64,000 nucleotides of DNA from Methanocella paludicola SANAE (GTDB taxonomy: Archaea; Halobacteriota; Methanocellia; Methanocellales; Methanocellaceae). The stretch is taken from positions 2,271,501-2,335,500 of the forward strand of contig NC_013665.1 in assembly GCF_000011005.1 (NCBI RefSeq), read 5' to 3'. Position 1 is the stretch's first letter, and every line of letters starts with the position of its first letter. Position numbers and translations under genes: made by a program. The notes under the pieces are model-generated. The model saw nothing but the letters and a program-made list of their open reading frames with translations, made no database searches and was not told the DNA's origin. This document shows positions 19,371 to 30,829 of the stretch, piece by piece.

Positions 19371-19613
19371 TCATTTACCCGAGCGCAGCAGCTTGCCCCT
19401 CTCGATGAGCTCCTTGACCTTCTGGCCGCCCTTGTGGCCTATGTCCTCGTAAAAGCTGCCGCCGTAGCGTTCCTTGGTGGTCTCCCCGCCGATCTTTCCG
19501 CCCTTGCGGCCGATCTCCTCGTAAAACCCTTCCCCATAACGCGCTTTTGTCTTTTCACCGCCCTTATGGCCGGCTTCCTTGACAGTCATTACTCCTTTGC
19601 CTTTATCCGCCAT
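19371..19613 (-). CDS. KGG-motif small stress-type protein (second copy)
   Basis: This 80-residue protein carries several KGG motifs in repeats: AGHKGGEKTKARYGEGFYEE, IGRKGGKIGGETTKERYGGS and DIGHKGGQKVKELIERGK. It is a longer paralogue of the protein at 1730-1915; both end in a related LIERGK tail. The ATG at 19613 is chosen for its GAGGTG ribosome-binding site six bases upstream. The protein is probably disordered and stress-related; its function is not established. Confidence 0.8.
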   Translation of the reverse strand: MADKGKGVMTVKEAGHKGGEKTKARYGEGFYEEIGRKGGKIGGETTKERYGGSFYEDIGHKGGQKVKELIERGKLLRSGK

Positions 19614-19807
19614 TTCCACACCTCTATGTAATGTCGAAAAAATCTGCCCTTCTGTCGGCTTTATGGATACACGGTAATGTAATTGGCATAGGGCATTCAA
19701 TTTAACTAACGGATAACACGAGATTGCGCTTGAATTTTATAATATACTATATCCGCCTGACAGTTATGGTAAAAAACGCTTAAATCAATGTATAAAAAGA
19801 GGCAGGC

Positions 19808-20116
19808 TCACATCTTGAGCTCGATGAGGTCGGGAGAGAATCCGTAGCTCACTAAAAGCTTTTTTACTTCTTCCCGGTGGTCGCCCTGTAGCTCGATGCG
19901 GCCGTCCTTGATGGTGCCGCCGCAGGCGAATTTGGTCTTCAGCTTCTGGGAGAGTTCCTTGATGTTGACGTTCTTCGTATCGATGCCATCGATGATGGTC
20001 GTGATCTTCTTAAAACGCCGTGTGTTGGTATATACGCGAATTTTTTGGTTCTCCTTCGCCAGGTCCTCGCAAATGCAGAGGTCCGTGGGCAATCCACACT
20101 TATTGCAAACTTCCAT
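19808..20116 (-). CDS. Translation initiation factor aIF1 (SUI1)
   Basis: The 102-residue protein is archaeal aIF1/SUI1, which controls start-codon selection on the small ribosomal subunit. A cysteine cluster opens it (CNKCGLPTDLCIC), as in many archaeal members. The SUI1 core has TRRFKKITTIIDGID, LKTKFACGGTIKDGRIELQG and a DHREEVKKLLVSYGF end. It is transcribed leftward from its own TATA-like region near 20140-20160. Confidence 0.93.
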   Translation of the reverse strand: MEVCNKCGLPTDLCICEDLAKENQKIRVYTNTRRFKKITTIIDGIDTKNVNIKELSQKLKTKFACGGTIKDGRIELQGDHREEVKKLLVSYGFSPDLIELKM

Positions 20117-20162: not shown

Positions 20163-20495
20163 TCATTCTGGGATGAACTTAAAGCCGCAATCTCTTGAAA
20201 CGTCGTCCCCGTAATCCTCTTCCGGGTAGCGCTTACATATGTCGGGCTTATTATCGTGTATGGCGCACGAGAACGTGCCGTCCTTATTCTCGACGAGGTT
20301 TTTGCACGGGTTCCTTATCTGCAATTCCACGTTGCGGCCCTTGAAGTTCTTGATATCGGCCGAGACGCCGACGTGGGACTCCAGCCACCGCAGGTATTCC
20401 GTGAACTCGTAGTCGGTCACGCCGCCCACGTGCATGTCTATGCAGAAATCCCTGCAGCAATTCCCGCACTGCTTACAGCTTCCTGTTCGTTTCAT
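20163..20495 (-). CDS. YkgJ-type cysteine cluster protein
   Basis: The 110-residue protein has the CxxCxxCC signature CKQCGNCCRDFC at its N-terminus, a middle cysteine in RNPCKNLVENKDGTFSC, and a C-terminal CKRYPEEDYGDD...DCGF. This matches the YkgJ/UPF0153 family, thought to bind zinc or an iron-sulfur cluster; the biological role is unknown. The ATG abuts the stop of the upstream gene (20496), so the two are translationally coupled. Confidence 0.85.
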   Translation of the reverse strand: MKRTGSCKQCGNCCRDFCIDMHVGGVTDYEFTEYLRWLESHVGVSADIKNFKGRNVELQIRNPCKNLVENKDGTFSCAIHDNKPDICKRYPEEDYGDDVSRDCGFKFIPE

Positions 20496-20951
20496 TCAGT
20501 CTCGCTTCCTCTTTTCCTCGCCCGAGTACACTTTCCTCATCAGGTTCAGCCACCGCCGCCCGTCCTCCATTTTCGCCCTGTTCGCCTCTTCCTTGATGGA
20601 TGGCTTCGGCATCGGGGCGTTGTAGAGCGTGTCGAGCGCCCGGTCCAGCCCCCTGGCCTCGGCGTACAGCGCCTGTGCCTCGGACTTCGCCATCTCTTCC
20701 CGGGAAATGCGATCGATGATCTCGCGGCGCTTACGCTTGACGGCCGATATGACACGGTCGACCTCCGCAATGTCCTCCGGAGTCAGCCGCCCGCGCTTCT
20801 TTGACATCTCAAAGACGAATGCCCTGAGAGGTATCCGCCCGCCGTCCGCCTCAAGCTCCGGCGGTATGGTCGCGCCGGCAAAGGCGAACTCCTTATCGAG
20901 CTTCAATAACAGGTTCTCCCGCTCGTACTTTGAGAGCTTCTCGTCGCTCAT
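20496..20951 (-). CDS. DUF5788-like hypothetical protein
   Basis: The 151-residue, highly charged helical protein (SKYERENLLLKLDKEF, RAFVFEMSKKRGRLTPEDI, then a long Arg/Glu helix) resembles an archaeal uncharacterised family that I recall as DUF5788; that name is from memory. The start follows the Ubl-JAMM-E1 gene stop by 45 bases on the same strand, and the stop abuts the YkgJ gene. Together they could form one leftward unit (Ubl-JAMM-E1, DUF5788, YkgJ). Confidence 0.6.
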   Translation of the reverse strand: MSDEKLSKYERENLLLKLDKEFAFAGATIPPELEADGGRIPLRAFVFEMSKKRGRLTPEDIAEVDRVISAVKRKRREIIDRISREEMAKSEAQALYAEARGLDRALDTLYNAPMPKPSIKEEANRAKMEDGRRWLNLMRKVYSGEEKRKRD

Positions 20952-20996: not shown

Positions 20997-22448
20997 TTAT
21001 CTTCTGGCCCTGCGCTCGTCGCCCGCGCCCAGCACGCCGCCCTCGCCGCACATCGGGCATGCCCTATCCCGATCCCGGCGCCGGCGCTCGACGGACTGAG
21101 CCTCAGGGTCATATTCGACGAGGTCAAAGGCCCTGTCCGCGCCCGAGAGCATGTCCATCAGCTCCTGGACTGCGATAGAGGCCACCGCCTCGTTCACGGG
21201 CACGCTTGAAGCCCCAGTGTCCCTGTCAGTAGCGGCCTCTCCGGAGCAACTGCTGCACCCGGTGATGCCGGGCAGGAGCACTCGTACCAGGCCGTACGGG
21301 CCGCCATTTTCCGCCTTAATTGCAGTGCGTGCCTCGATGCAGGGTATGAGGTATTTGAGCGATACGTCGGCGACAGCGGCCTTTAGCGCCTCATCCGACC
21401 CGCAATAAAATATCACGTCACAGTCCTTAAGATAGCTCCGGGCGCTGCGGGCGACATCGCTGACGTTGAAAGCGTCGATGTCCGCGGATATCTTCCTGAG
21501 CATCTTCTGCGCGGCCTTCGCGCGCCGCTTACCCGTTTCCATGCCGGTCACGCCGTCGTCCAGCAGGAGAAAATTCCTTACGCCCTGCCGGGCCAGCATA
21601 GAGCATATCTCCAGGCCGATCCCGTCCAGCCCGACAACGGCCACCCTTATGGACCCGGGACATGCGGCGGACGTTATCTCGCAAGAGGAGGCGCTCCGGT
21701 GCATGACGGCGTCCTTCATCCCGTTCCTGCCGAGTACGCTTATGCGGGCGCTCTCGGGCATGACGAGAGAGTCGTGGTCGCCGTCGTAGTCGCAGAATGA
21801 AAATCCGGCCTCACCGACCACGGCCATGGCAAAGCGCAGCCCGCACGAGCGGAGGAAACGCCCGTTCTCCAGGCCGTTCTCGATGTCGATCCACGAAAAG
21901 TTGGGCTCCCTTGAGCCAACATGGGTGTGCACTTCCACCACCAGGTCGCCTTTCAAGGCGGCCTCGGCCAGCACGGCCTCGATGAACTCGGCCCGGGGCG
22001 TCACCGTGATGCTGGACTGCTCGAACAGGTCTTCCTTCGCCGGTATGTGGAGCCCTCTCACGAAATAGTCACGATTCTTCCTGTCGGACCGGCTGCCGCA
22101 GCGGGCCACGGCATAGCCTTCCCTCGACAGGGATTCGGAAGCTTCGAACGCCTTCCGCATGAGCTCAAAAAGGGGCTGAGAGAAAATAAGCCGGACTGAC
22201 CGGTCGGCTTTTCGCTGCTTTTTGGACGAGAGTACGCGGAACTTTTGCATGCCCTTCGTGAACGGCCGCCCTACAGTAAAGCGGTCGCCTTCCGATACGT
22301 CGATCTCGCCATGGACGATGACGTTCTTTCCGCCTGAGGCTTTTGCGATCGGCCGGCTCTGGTCGCTATGCGTGACCCGCCGTATCTCGGCGGCGCTCGT
22401 GCGCTCCGGGACCTGTACTGGCCTGCCGTCGACGTATATAGTGACCAT
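20997..22448 (-). CDS. Ubl-JAMM-E1 (ThiF) fusion protein
   Basis: The 483-residue protein appears to join three ubiquitin-pathway modules. Residues 1-70 (MVTIYVDGRPVQVPERTSAA, then EIRRV...GEIDVSEGDRFTVG) match the multiubiquitin-type beta-grasp pattern. Residues about 85-240 form a JAMM/MPN domain with H174, H176, S185 and D188 in VEVHTHVGS...NFSWID, the zinc protease HxH-x8-S-x2-D pattern; Glu95 is a possible upstream Glu. Residues about 265-470 form an E1/ThiF domain: AVVGLDGIGLEICSMLAR, LLLDDGVTG, basic RRAKAAQKML, LPGITGCSSC (398-401) and a distal CPMC (464-467). The first glycine-rich loop has Asp where Gly is usual (GLDGIG). There is no E2 gene beside it. A TATA-like stretch lies near 22486-22500. 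Confidence 0.8.
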   Translation of the reverse strand: MVTIYVDGRPVQVPERTSAAEIRRVTHSDQSRPIAKASGGKNVIVHGEIDVSEGDRFTVGRPFTKGMQKFRVLSSKKQRKADRSVRLIFSQPLFELMRKAFEASESLSREGYAVARCGSRSDRKNRDYFVRGLHIPAKEDLFEQSSITVTPRAEFIEAVLAEAALKGDLVVEVHTHVGSREPNFSWIDIENGLENGRFLRSCGLRFAMAVVGEAGFSFCDYDGDHDSLVMPESARISVLGRNGMKDAVMHRSASSCEITSAACPGSIRVAVVGLDGIGLEICSMLARQGVRNFLLLDDGVTGMETGKRRAKAAQKMLRKISADIDAFNVSDVARSARSYLKDCDVIFYCGSDEALKAAVADVSLKYLIPCIEARTAIKAENGGPYGLVRVLLPGITGCSSCSGEAATDRDTGASSVPVNEAVASIAVQELMDMLSGADRAFDLVEYDPEAQSVERRRRDRDRACPMCGEGGVLGAGDERRARR

Positions 22449-24549: not shown

Positions 24550-25818
24550 CTAGGGCCTCCCATGGCATCGCTTGTATTTCCGGCCGCTCCCGCATGGGCA
24601 TGGGTCGTTGCGGCCGACCCTGGCCGCCGTGCCCTCTTCATCCGATAATACCTGCATTACTCCTTCGGCGGGGCGGCCCTGGCGGAGGAGCGAGGCCATT
24701 ATCTGCATCGGGTGGTTGACGTGCTCGAAGAACATTTTCAGCCCGGGGCAGAGGTAGCTCAGTCCCGGCTCCCCGCTAATGAAGCGATGCTTGGGGCAGT
24801 CGCCGTTGCAGGCAAAGCGCACGATGCACTCGCGACACTGGCGGACCAGGTCCGCCTTACGCTGCCCGAACCTGCGCTGGGCCTCCGAGCCCACCAGCCC
24901 GGCCAGCGGCTTATCGGCGATATTGCCTAAAAAGTAATCAGGCTCGACGAAGTGGTCGCATGAATATACGTCGCCGTTGTGCTCGAGCGCCACGCCCTCC
25001 CCGCAGGTCCGCCGGAAGATGCAGAGCGACGACTGGCCGCTCAGCCAGGCCATCAGCGTGCCGTCGAACTGCTGTACGAACATGCGCCCCACATCGTGGC
25101 GTACCCATTCGTCGAAGATATCGATCAAAAATCGGCCGTATTGCTCCGGCAAGACGGAACGTTCTGTGACCTCCCGGCCCTCCTGGAAGCCCCTTTCGCT
25201 GACGCGCTCGACCACCGGGATGAACTGGAGATACTCGGCGCCCAGCTCGTCGCGGAAGAAACGGTATACTTCAAGGGGGTGATCGCCATTGGCGGCGTTG
25301 ACCGTGCATAAGATGTTAAAATCAACCTTATGTTTCTGCATGAGGCGGACGGCGTTCACGACACGGTCGAACGTGGGCCTGCCCGCCCTGTCCACGCGAT
25401 AGCGGTCGTGCATCTCACGGGGCCCGTCCATGCTCAGGCCGACCAGGAACTTATTTTCGTGCAGGAACTCGCACCACTCGTCGTCGAGCAGGGTGCCGTT
25501 GGTCTGTAGCGTGTTCTGGATGATCGTCCCGGGCTTCTGGCATTTTCGCTCGACGTCCATGGAACGCCGGAAAAAGTCCAGGCCCATGAGAGTCGGTTCC
25601 CCGCCCTGCCATGCGATCACCACCCCGGGCGTCCGGTGCGCCTCGATGGTCTGCCGTATGTAGCGTTCCATAACGTCGTCGGACATGCGGAAACTATCCC
25701 CCGGATAGAGCCGGTCCTTCTTCAGGAAAAAGCAATATGCGCAGGCGAGATTGCACTTCGCGCCCGTCGGCTTGGCCATGACGTGAAAGGCCCCTGGTGG
25801 CTCACATGTCGATGACAT
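24550..25818 (-). CDS. Anaerobic sulfatase-maturating radical SAM enzyme (anSME)
   Basis: The 422-residue enzyme converts the active-site Cys or Ser of sulfatases to C-alpha-formylglycine without oxygen. The radical SAM cluster is C22, C26, C29 ([11 protein letters not shown]), followed by [10 protein letters not shown]. The twitch/SPASM region has CDHF and [14 protein letters not shown] cysteines for two auxiliary Fe-S clusters, then CPKHRF. The last 20 residues are an SEC-C zinc motif ([15 protein letters not shown]), common at the end of anSMEs. It starts seven bases after the arylsulfatase with an AGGAGG site, so it is co-transcribed with its substrate. Confidence 0.93.
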
Positions 25819-25825
25819 GAGCCTC

Positions 25826-28180
25826 CTACTGCCGCGCCATCACGATGCGCATCTCGGCCTCCGCGTCCTTGATCAGCTCGCCGCTGACGTCCACGTCGAC
25901 CTTATGGATCCTGCCGGTGAACTCGAACGGCGACCGGTAGTCCATCGTTACCGGGGCGCCCGGATCGGCGCCCACGACAATGCCCCCACCCAGGGTCATC
26001 CGGATCGGGATGGTGACGGGAATATCAGCCTGCCCGACCAGCCGACCGTCGATATATAGCTGGCCGCGCCCTGGAGTGCCCTTGCCGCCCGGGAGGTCCG
26101 GCTTGCCGGTCACCTCGAACTCGTACCGCAGCTGATGGCGGCCCTCTGGCACCGGCTCCCGGGACTCGACGTGGTACAGCACCTTCGAGACGTAATTGTG
26201 GACGTAATGCAGCCGGCCGTCCTTGACGTAAAACGTAAATCCACCCTCATCGCTTCCCTGCGAGAGGAGCACGCCCTCGGCACCACCCGGGGGGACATCC
26301 ACGTCAGCCGTGATACTATGAGAGCGGTTGAGCACGTTGACCGCCTGCTGATCCGGGATCATCTGCGTGCCGGAATAATATGTGTAGTTCATGCGCGGCG
26401 GGGCTATCGCCGGGCGCTCGTCCATGAAGCGAAGCGTCCCACGGCTATCGATCGGCAGAACCTTGTACTTGCCCGCTTCGATGTACCACAGGGAGATCAT
26501 CTCGATCAGCTTGGGCCGATTTTGTGCCGACAGGTCGTGATTCTCTGCGAAGTCCTCCGCCAGATGGTACAGCTCCCAGCCTCGGGCGTCCAGCTCGATC
26601 AGCCTCTCGGACGATAGCGGCGCCCCGAAGAACTGGCCGCTTTCGGTGAACGACGGGCCGGGCCAGGGGCAGACGGCGCGCCAGCCGTCATGATATATCG
26701 CGCGATGGCCGAACATCTCGAAGTACTGAGTATGGTGCCTGCCCGGAGCATTCGCATCGTCGAAGGTATTGGCCAGGCTCACGCCTTCCAGCGGCGACTG
26801 TGTGACGCCCCTAATGGCCGAAGGCGACGCTATCTCGAGCGCTTCCAGCACGGTGGGCACCATGTCGATGGCATGGCTGTACTGCGTGCGGACCTCGCCG
26901 CTGGATTTAATCCCTCCTGGCCAGTGTACAATGAAGGGGTCGCTGACGCCGCCCCGGTAGGTCTCGCGCTTCCAGCGGCGGAAGGGAGTGTTGCCGGCCC
27001 AGGCCCAGCCCCACGAGTAGTGATTGCTGTACTCGGGACCTCCCAGCTTCTCCATGGCTTTCATGTTTTCCCCCATAGACTCCGGGATGTTGTTGAAGAA
27101 CCGGCTCAGGTTCACCGAGCCGCCCGGGCCGCCCTCGGAGCTGGCGCCATTGTCCGAGAGCAGCATGATGAGGGTATTATTGAATTCGCCAATGCTGCGG
27201 AGGAAATCGAGGAGTCGGCCGATATGGTGGTCGGTATGTTCCAGGAAGCCGGCGAATACCTCCATCATTCGGGCGTAGAGCCTCTTTTCCTCTGACGTGC
27301 ACTCGTCCCATGGCTTGACGTCGGGGTCATGACGTGAGATCTCGGCGTTCGCTGGGATAATGCCCAGCTCTTTCTGCCTTGCAAAGACTTTTTCCCGATA
27401 GGCATCCCAGCCGTCATCAAACCGGCCCTTATATCTGTCCGCCCATTCCCTGGGCACATGGTGGGGAGAATGCATCGCGCCCGTGGCGAAGTACAGGAAG
27501 AACGGCTTGTTTGGCGCTACCTGTTTGGCATCGGCGATGAACGAAATGGCCTTATCGACCAGGTCTACAGTCAGGTGATAGCCTTCCTCAGGGGTCTTCG
27601 GTGGCTCTACCGTGTGGTTATCGTATACCAGCTCAGGATAATACTGGTTCGATTCCCCGGACATGAAGCCATAGAAGCGCTCGAAGCCCCGTCCCAGGGG
27701 CCAGCGGTCGTACGGTCCCGCAGCGGACGACTGGTCGGAGGGCGTCAGATGCCACTTACCCACCGCGTAGGTACTGTAGCCCTGCTGCAATAGAATCTCT
27801 GACAGGAAGCCGTTCTCGAACGGGATGTTGCCGTTGCTGCCCGGGAATCCGGTGGAGCCTTCCGTTATGCAGGCCATGGCATTGGAGTGATGGTTGCGGC
27901 CGGTAAGCACGCAGGAGCGAGTGGGCGAGCACAGGGCAGTCGTATGCATGTTATTATATCTCAGGCCATTGGCCGCCAGACTGTCGATGTTCGGCGTCCG
28001 GATGGGGCTGCCGTAGCAGCCGAGATGGCCGAACCCGGTGTCGTCCAGTATGATGAATAGTACATTCGGCATTCCCTCCCTGGACCTGACGGGCTCCGGC
28101 CATGCCGGGGAAGATTCGTCCACCGTACGGCCGATAATGCCGTTAAACGCCGTTCCAGGCTTATATTCCTTCATTGCCAT
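25826..28180 (-). CDS. Arylsulfatase, Cys-type (784 aa)
   Basis: This large type I sulfatase hydrolyses sulfate esters. The fold starts with [19 protein letters not shown] (metal-binding DD) and has the formylglycine motif LCSPTRS with Cys84 as the modified residue. KWHL, metal-site [12 protein letters not shown] and TGAMHSPHH segments follow. The C-terminal 200 residues form an extra beta domain. No signal peptide is present, so the enzyme should be cytoplasmic. It heads a leftward operon with anSME and DUF202, and is divergent from a BASS transporter across an inverted repeat. The length is like the large bacterial arylsulfatases, which suggests lateral acquisition. Confidence 0.93.
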
Positions 28181-28236
28181 TTTCCCTTCACCTGCTTATA
28201 CGGTCCTCTCCAGAGTGACGCAGCACTAAAAAATGA

Positions 28237-28296
28237 TTTTATATAAATATATAAATGCGTAATAGATAATTATCCTTAACTTAACGGATAATCATC
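28237..28296. promoter_or_regulatory. Divergent promoter with inverted-repeat operator
   Basis: Between the sulfatase and the BASS transporter, an A+T-rich tract with TATATAAATATATAAA (28240-28256) gives the leftward TATA box. Next to it GATAATTATCC (28265-28275) and GGATAATCATC (28286-28296) form an 11-bp inverted repeat with one mismatch and a ten-base spacer. This is the arrangement expected for a dimeric regulator controlling both directions. Confidence 0.55.
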
Positions 28297-28338
28297 TTAC
28301 TGCGCCCTATAAGGGAACGATGAGGCAGGTCGGTCACT

Positions 28339-29211
28339 ATGGCAAACGACATCCTGACGATGATCAAGGTATGTGCGGCTATCAGCGTGTTCACTTTCGT
28401 TTTTTCCCGGGGACTGGGCACGCGCATCGATGACCTCGGCTACTTCAGCACGCGATCCGGGCTGATGGCAAGGTCTTTTCTTTCCGTCGATGTCCTGGTC
28501 CCGCTCATCACGATCGCGGTCATCTATCTCGTCAGCCCTTCGAGGGCCACGGCTATCGGCCTGATCCTGCTCGCGGCAGCGCCGGTCGCTCCCCTTGTCT
28601 CAAAGAACATAGCGAATGCCGGTGGAAAGCTGGACTACGCCATGAGCCTCCAGGTGTTGCTGGCATCGCTGGCGATAGTCACGACGCCCGCCTTGCTATA
28701 TCTTTTATCCCGCGTTACGGGGATCACTATGAACATCGATCCGATATCAGTGGCAGAGAGCGTCGGGCTCTCCGTGCTCGTGCCCATCCTTGGCGGGGTG
28801 TTTGTCAGACGGCTATTCCCGGCCCTGGCTGAACGCCTTATCCGGCCGCTGGAGATCTGCTCGATCGTCGTCCTGGCCCTGGTGTTCATCATCGTCCTGC
28901 TGTTCACGTATCAGCTTGTCTTTGTCCCGAATATCCGGTCCTATATAGCCATGGTACTGGTGGTCGTCGGTGCCCTGGCGGCAGGCCACCTGATGGCGCC
29001 GGGGCTGCCGGAAGAACAGACGACTCTGGCGCTGGAGAGCGCGGCGCGGAACAGCGGGCTCGCCCTGCTGATAGCCTCGGAATACGCCTCGCTCGAGAGG
29101 GCCCTGCCGGTGATGATACCGTACTTACTATTATCCGCAGCCATATGCTTCATTTACATCCGATACCGGAAAATGGGGCATGGTATTACGCGACCTACCC
29201 GGTCTGGTTAG
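28339..29211 (+). CDS. BASS-family (bile acid:sodium symporter-like) transporter
   Basis: The 290-residue protein has about nine to ten transmembrane helices and the family signature LALESAARNSGLALLIA, with LLAAAPVAPLVSKN in the first core half. BASS proteins import organic anions with sodium; some bacterial members carry sulfonates or sulfated metabolites. Its position, divergent from arylsulfatase and maturase genes across a shared operator, suggests that it imports a sulfated organic compound for the cytoplasmic sulfatases. That substrate is inferred. Confidence 0.8.
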   Translation: MANDILTMIKVCAAISVFTFVFSRGLGTRIDDLGYFSTRSGLMARSFLSVDVLVPLITIAVIYLVSPSRATAIGLILLAAAPVAPLVSKNIANAGGKLDYAMSLQVLLASLAIVTTPALLYLLSRVTGITMNIDPISVAESVGLSVLVPILGGVFVRRLFPALAERLIRPLEICSIVVLALVFIIVLLFTYQLVFVPNIRSYIAMVLVVVGALAAGHLMAPGLPEEQTTLALESAARNSGLALLIASEYASLERALPVMIPYLLLSAAICFIYIRYRKMGHGITRPTRSG

Positions 29212-29329
29212 GGATCGTCGGGCATTTTTCAATACGCGGGAACATGCGGCTCCCGCTGGCGGCATATCGCATCATTATCAGGTCGCCATGATAAGGGGCC
29301 AACGTATGCCTCCTTTTAATGATGGCCCT

Positions 29330-30829
29330 TTAATCGCCGGGAACATTCTTCATCTGCTCGCTGGCCTTTTCAACGGTGAAACTCGCGGCCTTCTGGCGCG
29401 GCGGGAATTCCTTGAACGTCGCCATGAACTCTCCGACGGCCTTCTGCGCAGGTATGACCAGGTACGCGTGGGAGAATAACCAGTCGTAGTAAGTGTTCGA
29501 AGTGGTATCCGCGAACTCAAATGGATCGGTGCGCAGGTTGAAAATCTTCGGCACACGTAGGTGGGTGAATGGATTGGCCCAGACGGCTAGAGTCCCCGGG
29601 CACCGCTGTTCCAGGAAGACCATTTTCCAATTGTTATAGCGCATGGCGAGTAGATCGCCGTCGTCCGAGAAGTAGAAGAATACGTCGCGGGGCCACTTCT
29701 TTTCTTTACCGGCCAGGTAGGGCAGCAGGTTGTATCCGTCGATGTGTACCTTGAATTTTTTCTTGCCCGCCTTATGCCCTTTCTTCAATTTTTCAATGAT
29801 ATCCGGTTCGCCTGCGGCCGCCAGGAAGGTCGGCAGCCAGTCGTGGTGACTGACGATCTCGTTACAGACGCTCCCGGGCTTGATCTTACCGGGCCAGCGC
29901 AATAATAACGGCACTCGAAAGGCGCCTTCCCAGCACGTATTCTTCTCGCTGCGGAATGGGGTCGTGCCAGCGTCCGGCCAGGAGTTGCGATGCGGACCGT
30001 TATCGGTGCTGTACATGACGATGGTGTTATCCGCGATGTCGAGGTCGTCCAGCTGCTTAAGCAACTGTCCTACGCACCAGTCATGATAGATCATGGCGTC
30101 GTGGTACTCGGACTGCCAGAGCCCCGACTTCCCCAGGTAATCGGGCCGGACGTGGGTGCGGAAGTGCATGTGTGTCGTGTTGAACCAGACGAAGAAGGGC
30201 TTGCCGTCTTTATGCTGACGCTTGATGAAGTCCTTCGCCGCCTTGAGGAACTCTTCGTCGACCGTCTCCATGCGCTTTTTCGTGAGAGGGCCCGTGTCCT
30301 CGATCTTCTGACCCCCGTCCGGCTTCGCCCAGCAATGCAGGACGCCCCGGGGCCCGAAGTTCTTCCTGAAGTCAGGGAAGAGCGATTCCGGAGGATAGTC
30401 CCGTTCTTCGGGCTCTTCCTCCGCGTTCAAATGGTACAGGTTGCCGAAGAACTCGTCTAAGCCGTGCATCGTCGGCAGGAACTTATCCTTATCACCGAAA
30501 TGGTTCTTCCCGAACTGGCCCGTGGCATATCCCAGCGGCTTTAAAAGTTCCGCTATCGTCGGGTCCTCGGCGCTAAGGCCGATTTCCGCGCCCGGCATTC
30601 CTACTTTGCTCAGCCCCGTTCGGTAAACGCTCTGCCCCGTGATAAAAGATGAGCGTCCGGCGGTGCAGCTTTGCTCGCCGTAGCTGTCGGTGAAGAGCAA
30701 GCCCTCCTCGCCGATACGGTCTATGTTGGGGGTGCGGTATCCCATTAGCCCTTTCGAGTAGATGCTCAGGTTGGTGATACCGATATCGTCTCCCCATATA
30801 ACCAGAATGTTGGGTTTCTTTGCAGCCAT
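29330..30829 (-). CDS. Arylsulfatase, Cys-type (499 aa)
   Basis: This second type I sulfatase is in the smaller size class. PNILVIWGDDIGITNLS begins the fold, and SCTAGRSSF contains the formylglycine precursor Cys55 in a CxAxR variant of the usual CxPxR motif. MYSTDNGPHRNSWPDAG supplies the metal-site Asp-Asn. There is no signal peptide, so it is cytoplasmic, and it must depend on the anSME encoded nearby at 24550-25818. It has its own promoter with a 16-base A/T palindrome at 30864-30879. It is a different subfamily from the 784-residue enzyme. Confidence 0.92.
   Translation of the reverse strand: MAAKKPNILVIWGDDIGITNLSIYSKGLMGYRTPNIDRIGEEGLLFTDSYGEQSCTAGRSSFITGQSVYRTGLSKVGMPGAEIGLSAEDPTIAELLKPLGYATGQFGKNHFGDKDKFLPTMHGLDEFFGNLYHLNAEEEPEERDYPPESLFPDFRKNFGPRGVLHCWAKPDGGQKIEDTGPLTKKRMETVDEEFLKAAKDFIKRQHKDGKPFFVWFNTTHMHFRTHVRPDYLGKSGLWQSEYHDAMIYHDWCVGQLLKQLDDLDIADNTIVMYSTDNGPHRNSWPDAGTTPFRSEKNTCWEGAFRVPLLLRWPGKIKPGSVCNEIVSHHDWLPTFLAAAGEPDIIEKLKKGHKAGKKKFKVHIDGYNLLPYLAGKEKKWPRDVFFYFSDDGDLLAMRYNNWKMVFLEQRCPGTLAVWANPFTHLRVPKIFNLRTDPFEFADTTSNTYYDWLFSHAYLVIPAQKAVGEFMATFKEFPPRQKAASFTVEKASEQMKNVPGD

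Follow-up and report, generated by a model that had tools for sequence, protein, structure and literature searches.

What is the role of a single protein that carries a ubiquitin-like domain (Ubl), a JAMM metalloprotease domain, and an E1-like domain? The question is raised by P0001, a fused gene of Methanocella paludicola SANAE found in the stretch of 64,000 nucleotides analysed here (the window). The original prediction was of an archaeal protein combining self-contained activation and deconjugation. The three domain identities and the archaeal host are confirmed, and the self-contained function is not. P0001 is probably the reduced descendant of a chromosomal operon of the Bub type, or type 6e, a conjugation-dead remnant that would be kept for the activity of its JAMM, on a pseudo-E1 scaffold. 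This reading starts from the architecture of the gene, the loss of the E2 and of the E1 active site, a JAMM that is intact and constrained, and a pseudo-E1 that is still coding, all of which are features of the sequence. The Bub operons of Citrobacter consist of BubA-BubB-BubCD (PDB 9ea4, 9ea5, 9eae, and 9eav; Ye et al. 2026, cited in PMC13373217), and type 6e designates the polyUbl / inactive E2 (RWD-like) / JAB-E1 operons in Table 1 of Iyer 2006 (PMC1779556). The gene lies on the minus strand, which had not been given previously, and the features of the locus are the following.

20997..22448, minus strand: P0001 (483 aa), one fused gene for Ubl, JAMM, and degenerate E1; GC3 0.76–0.80 throughout, as in neighbouring genes
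22251..22448, minus strand: ubiquitin-like beta-grasp domain, residues 1–66, C-terminal PFTKG; G66 identical in all four orthologues
22250..22251, minus strand: fusion junction FTKG/MQKF, where relatives carry an E2-like domain (~130–140 codons) between Ubl and JAMM-E1
21699..22250, minus strand: JAMM (MPN+) domain and leader, residues 67–250
22119..22121, minus strand: JAMM glutamate E110
21885..21929, minus strand: JAMM metal motif H174-x-H176...S185-x-x-D188, intact
21000..21698, minus strand: degenerate E1/ThiF domain, residues 251–483, with a ThiF match and an accelerated branch
21644..21645, minus strand: site where 14 aa are deleted after residue 268; immediately ahead, G265 replaces the DRQ arginine
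21554..21555, minus strand: site of a 12-aa deletion after residue 298, removing the SNLxR nucleotide-binding motif
21233..21234, minus strand: site of a 25-aa deletion after residue 405, removing the conserved GYV tyrosine (BubCD Y370)
21246..21257, minus strand: first zinc CxxC (398–401), retained
21048..21059, minus strand: second zinc CxxC (464–467), retained
20496..20951, minus strand: DUF5788 gene, the downstream neighbour, syntenic in 3/3 relatives and anchoring orthology
20163..20495, minus strand: CxxCxxCC-domain gene, syntenic in relatives
19808..20116, minus strand: small zinc-finger-like protein resembling aIF1/SUI1 (identity by inspection only), syntenic

The Ancestral Operon and the Loss of the E2

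The comparison covers four Methanocellales genomes, M. paludicola and three relatives (G001, G002, and G003), all of which carry the locus. In each of the relatives it is made of two overlapping genes, Ubl-E2 and then JAMM-E1, followed by the DUF5788, CxxCxxCC, and aIF1-like genes. The first of these genes fuses the Ubl to a Prok-E2_E domain, which passes the Pfam cut-off in every relative (E from 1.4e-7 to 1.6e-5). P0001 has 38–44% identity with the JAMM-E1 of the relatives which, with synteny, indicates common descent from the operon. As in the relatives, FTKG closes its Ubl, and the first residues of JAMM-E1 come directly after, with no E2 between. The absence of an adjacent E2 had been noted, and profile search finds none elsewhere in the M. 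paludicola genome either, using profiles that recover the E2 of the relatives at E < 1e-39. Because the orthologous loci of all three relatives have an E2, it was lost in M. paludicola.

The same gene set is found as separate genes, in the order Ubl, E2, JAMM-E1, on bacterial and haloarchaeal plasmids and on a Daviesbacteria contig. Since the set of the relatives matches the type 6e and Bub operons, the two-gene state is ancestral and P0001 derived. The ancestral locus would have consisted of a Ubl-E2 gene overlapping a JAMM-E1 gene. In the lineage of M. paludicola the E2 would have been deleted and the Ubl fused in frame with the beginning of JAMM-E1, after which the E1 would have lost its catalytic residues by further in-frame deletions and replacements. 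A scan of genome contigs gave no match with the P0001 protein, and the JAMM-E1 of the relatives retrieved nothing beyond Methanocella sp. PtaU1.Bin125 and one Daviesbacteria locus. No relatives were found among the viral contigs and phages searched, and a tblastn of the Methanocella Ubl-E2 protein had no match among plasmids.

The E2 genes show some variation among loci. In G001, a second E2-like ORF lies immediately downstream of JAMM-E1 (L027, 9692–10108; 2e-6 with the family E2 profile), and it is absent from G002, G003, and the window. The E2 proteins of archaeal loci (L027, L028, L032, L067, L068, L069, and L070) mostly have a cysteine (WFCTGH, HCIHE, YCIHR) at the position where the bacterial BubB-type E2s have a serine (FSWH, WSRH). 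This is not a strict rule, as the archaeal G359 (L070) has the serine. Iyer 2006 calls this E2 family cysteine-less and inactive (PMC1779556). In Natribaculum and the related haloarchaeal G235 (L068, 1986–5273; L069, 3332–6437), the Ubl/E2 genes are (partly) duplicated before JAMM-E1, and the latter is extended at its C-terminus by a long segment whose end is hydrophobic and resembles a membrane anchor.

Other genes occur near the locus. A small KGG-repeat, GsiB-like protein is encoded at 19371–19700 of the window (minus strand), and similar genes are near the locus in G002 (L028, 11706–12458) and G003 (L029, 9694–10465). To judge from translations, the region 24550–30829 (minus strand) encodes a radical SAM protein that resembles the anaerobic sulfatase-maturating enzyme and has a C-terminal SEC-C-like motif, adjoined by two arylsulfatase-like genes, an unusual content for a methanogen.

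Unequal Evolution of the Domains

The beta-grasp fold proposed for the N-terminal region is recovered in an AlphaFold model, in which residues 1–60 have the expected order of strands and helix (pLDDT ~75–92). This model was run on a 3-row alignment and is usable for the Ubl only, being unreliable elsewhere (mean pLDDT 41); the model of a relative's Ubl-E2 is also confident in the Ubl only. Among the profile searches suggested to identify the domains, ThiF gives a clear match (4e-17), whereas Multi_ubiq (PF14452) does not directly match residues 1–66 and Prok-JAB stays below cut-off (residues 123–205, E 0.03). Combined into one profile, the Ubls from all four Methanocellales genomes do find multiubiquitin-domain proteins (hhalign probability 93, E 3.5e-7). 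The best close structural matches of an orthologous Ubl also include multi-ubiquitin proteins, namely 8u38, which is bacterial (69 columns, rmsd 2.2), and 9cd2. A whole-chain Foldseek search with the P0001 model puts BubCD first (E 9e-4, TM 0.16), a weak match from a model unreliable outside the Ubl. Among the Ubl columns invariant in the other three orthologues, P0001 keeps 26/35 (74%), for 87–93% in leave-one-out controls. The Ubl is mildly relaxed at this level and may be on its way out.

The E1 domain has diverged much further. Its ThiF match (residues 267–464) scores 62.6 bits, against ~1e-43 and ~149 bits in the JAMM-E1 of the relatives. The roles of the lost residues are established for MoeB/ThiF. 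Besides the DRQ arginine, the lysine (now R309), the aspartate of CxDN (S351), and the aspartate of IDxG (E372) are replaced, and the asparagine and arginine of SNLxR and the tyrosine of GYV are deleted; all these residues are invariant in ten homologues. The SNLNRQ gap is seen directly when P0001 is aligned with the intact ThiF of its own genome. The GYV tyrosine is the residue mutated as Y370F in 9eav, as determined by the difference between the 9ea4 and 9eav sequences and by counting positions; its chain index is 372, consistent with a two-residue numbering offset. What remains of the active site is the ribose-binding D297. The four zinc cysteines are also kept, so that the two CxxC pairs previously reported are present, as is the glycine-rich loop (GLDGIG, residues 273–278). 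From these losses, adenylation activity is predicted to be absent. P0001 keeps 57/138 of the E1 columns invariant in the other three orthologues, with 24 deleted (leave-one-out controls 84–93%), and its terminal branch in the E1 tree is 1.37, ~5–8 times longer than in the relatives (0.17–0.29). The internal deletions are nonetheless all in frame, and there are neither stops nor frameshifts. Between the E1 remnant and G001 the differences at codon positions 1/2/3 are 0.45/0.42/0.72, showing that coding constraint persists; these differences and the normal GC3 indicate that the pseudo-E1 is still read as protein. An assembly error is ruled out: in a finished genome, misassembly would not produce a number of in-frame deletions together with replacements scattered along the sequence and rates that differ among domains.

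The JAMM contrasts with this. Its catalytic set is complete (5/5), as P0001 has the E + HxH(x)nSxxD motif, with E110 in addition to the four residues H174, H176, S185, and D188 noted originally. These residues are invariant across ten homologues, save E110 in one N-terminally short gene model. P0001 keeps 55/67 (82%) of the JAMM columns invariant in the other three orthologues, within the 82–85% of leave-one-out controls, and its terminal branch (0.51) compares with 0.04–0.49 in the relatives (0.28 in G001, 0.49 in G002). By these measures the JAMM evolves at the normal rate of the family and is normally constrained, although this constraint may stem from a role in structure or binding and not from catalysis.

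A Remnant That May Act as an Eraser

As the tag-attaching parts are lost, P0001 is best seen as a derived leftover or a specialised eraser and not as a complete all-in-one tagging machine. Each of the three folds can be recognised and no further component lies next to the gene, which is what one would expect if one polypeptide activated and deconjugated Ubl by itself. Yet the adenylation and transfer residues of the E1 are deleted or replaced, the ribose-binding aspartate excepted, the E2 of the ancestral operon is gone, and the C-terminus of the Ubl is buried in the fusion, so that the self-contained function is very improbable. The frame might alternatively stay open just so that the genes downstream (DUF5788, CxxCxxCC, and aIF1-like) continue to be translated, the product being irrelevant. 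DUF5788 is only 45 bp away on the same strand, but such a role would not conserve the amino acids of the JAMM to the degree seen in functional relatives, and this explanation is given equally little credit.

The loss of E1 function and of the E2, with the mild relaxation of the Ubl, would also fit a decaying pseudogene, in which selection has lapsed on the whole locus and the JAMM is merely undamaged so far. The very long branch of the E1 against the normal one of the JAMM indicates, however, that the parts have been under different constraint for a long time, and the open frame, normal GC3, and intact JAMM set also speak against decay. The figures for conservation, branch length, and codon positions argue against a simple pseudogene, which is improbable, and also against an active E1. 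Somewhat less improbable, though still unlikely, is a neofunctionalised regulator, whose pseudo-E1 and fused Ubl would form a binding scaffold or decoy with JAMM catalysis secondary or absent in vivo. The retention of all zinc-ribbon cysteines and of the glycine loop, and the constraint on the E1 remnant, agree with it, but what is conserved is precisely the catalytic residues of the JAMM.

If P0001 is instead a JAMM-retaining remnant of the operon, the protein would be made, and its JAMM would work as a peptidase or isopeptidase mounted on a pseudo-E1 scaffold that zinc stabilises. By its sequence it has no means of activating or conjugating its own Ubl, which in cis might be a built-in substrate-like or regulatory domain, or might be released by a cut after G66. 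This glycine, placed at the junction and conserved, would be a credible point of cleavage. In nature the protein may act on conjugates that the separate SAMP/ThiF machinery of the cell produces: the M. paludicola genome also encodes a separate ThiF-type E1, ThiS-like proteins, and one standalone JAMM, so that there may be other Ubl conjugates for it to target. It is possible, if rather doubtful, that P0001 is an "eraser-only" Bub protein, that is, an active JAMM deconjugase with a cis-fused Ubl and a pseudo-E1 platform, maintained after its conjugation arm was lost, that processes other Ubl conjugates (e.g., SAMP-type) or frees its own Ubl after G66. Standalone JAMM proteins, as detected by Prok-JAB matches, number two in each of the relatives, against one in M. 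paludicola, and a second JAMM gene may therefore also have been lost in this lineage.

At this locus a ubiquitin-like pathway has been taken apart in a single lineage, and the intact loci of sister genomes allow a comparison. Its conjugation arm (the E2 and the E1 chemistry) has gone, but constraint on the JAMM is undiminished, and this makes it testable whether the deconjugase acts independently of the operon's own conjugation.

Comparison with Known Systems

Among known systems, the closest is Bub. The JAMM-E1 of an intact relative finds its best PDB match in BubCD (E 2.8e-21), which likewise fuses JAMM to E1, and the E2 encoded in the operons of the relatives has a match in BubB (E 3e-16). 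P0001 shares with Bub and type 6e a multiubiquitin-type Ubl, a JAMM with its catalytic residues N-terminal to the E1, and common descent. It differs by lacking an E2-like protein (BubB) genome-wide and the E1 adenylation site and GYV tyrosine, and by joining the Ubl to JAMM-E1, whereas the relatives join it to the E2. The gene set of type 6e is identical, and the polyUbl-E2 fusion noted as possible in some species corresponds to the state of the Methanocellales relatives (PMC1779556). The fusion is unusual, as originally proposed, in being a single protein of three domains, but a JAMM-E1 fusion is the norm in row 6e of Table 1 (PMC1779556). That row names bacteria only, and a fusion of Ubl, JAMM, and dead E1 without E2 is not among the variants described there (PMC1779556).

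Operons with PF14452, PF14462 (Prok-E2_E), and PF00899 on rhizobial, Acidiphilium, and haloarchaeal plasmids have the order of Ubl, E2, and JAMM-E1 in common with this family, but differ from P0001 in that their genes are separate and the active site of their E1 is intact. Bil (BilA-D) and type II CBASS (Cap2/Cap3) follow a common Ubl/E1/E2/JAMM logic, with much weaker profile matches. The BilD model reaches only 1e-5 to 1e-8 with the proteins of the relatives, and P0001 has no specific BilA-D or Cap2/Cap3 match, its best PADLOC hit being an E1-E2 model (1.6e-5) over 35 residues of the Rossmann loop. The SAMP system (UbaA, SAMPs, HvJAMM1) also associates an archaeal Ubl with a JAMM, but the E1 of P0001 is not UbaA (NF047750, 12 bits for a cut-off of 450 bits). 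Iyer 2006 describes the type 6e operons as sporadic and mobile in bacteria (PMC1779556). In contrast, chromosomal and syntenic loci of the Bub type exist in methanogens, in all four Methanocellales genomes examined.
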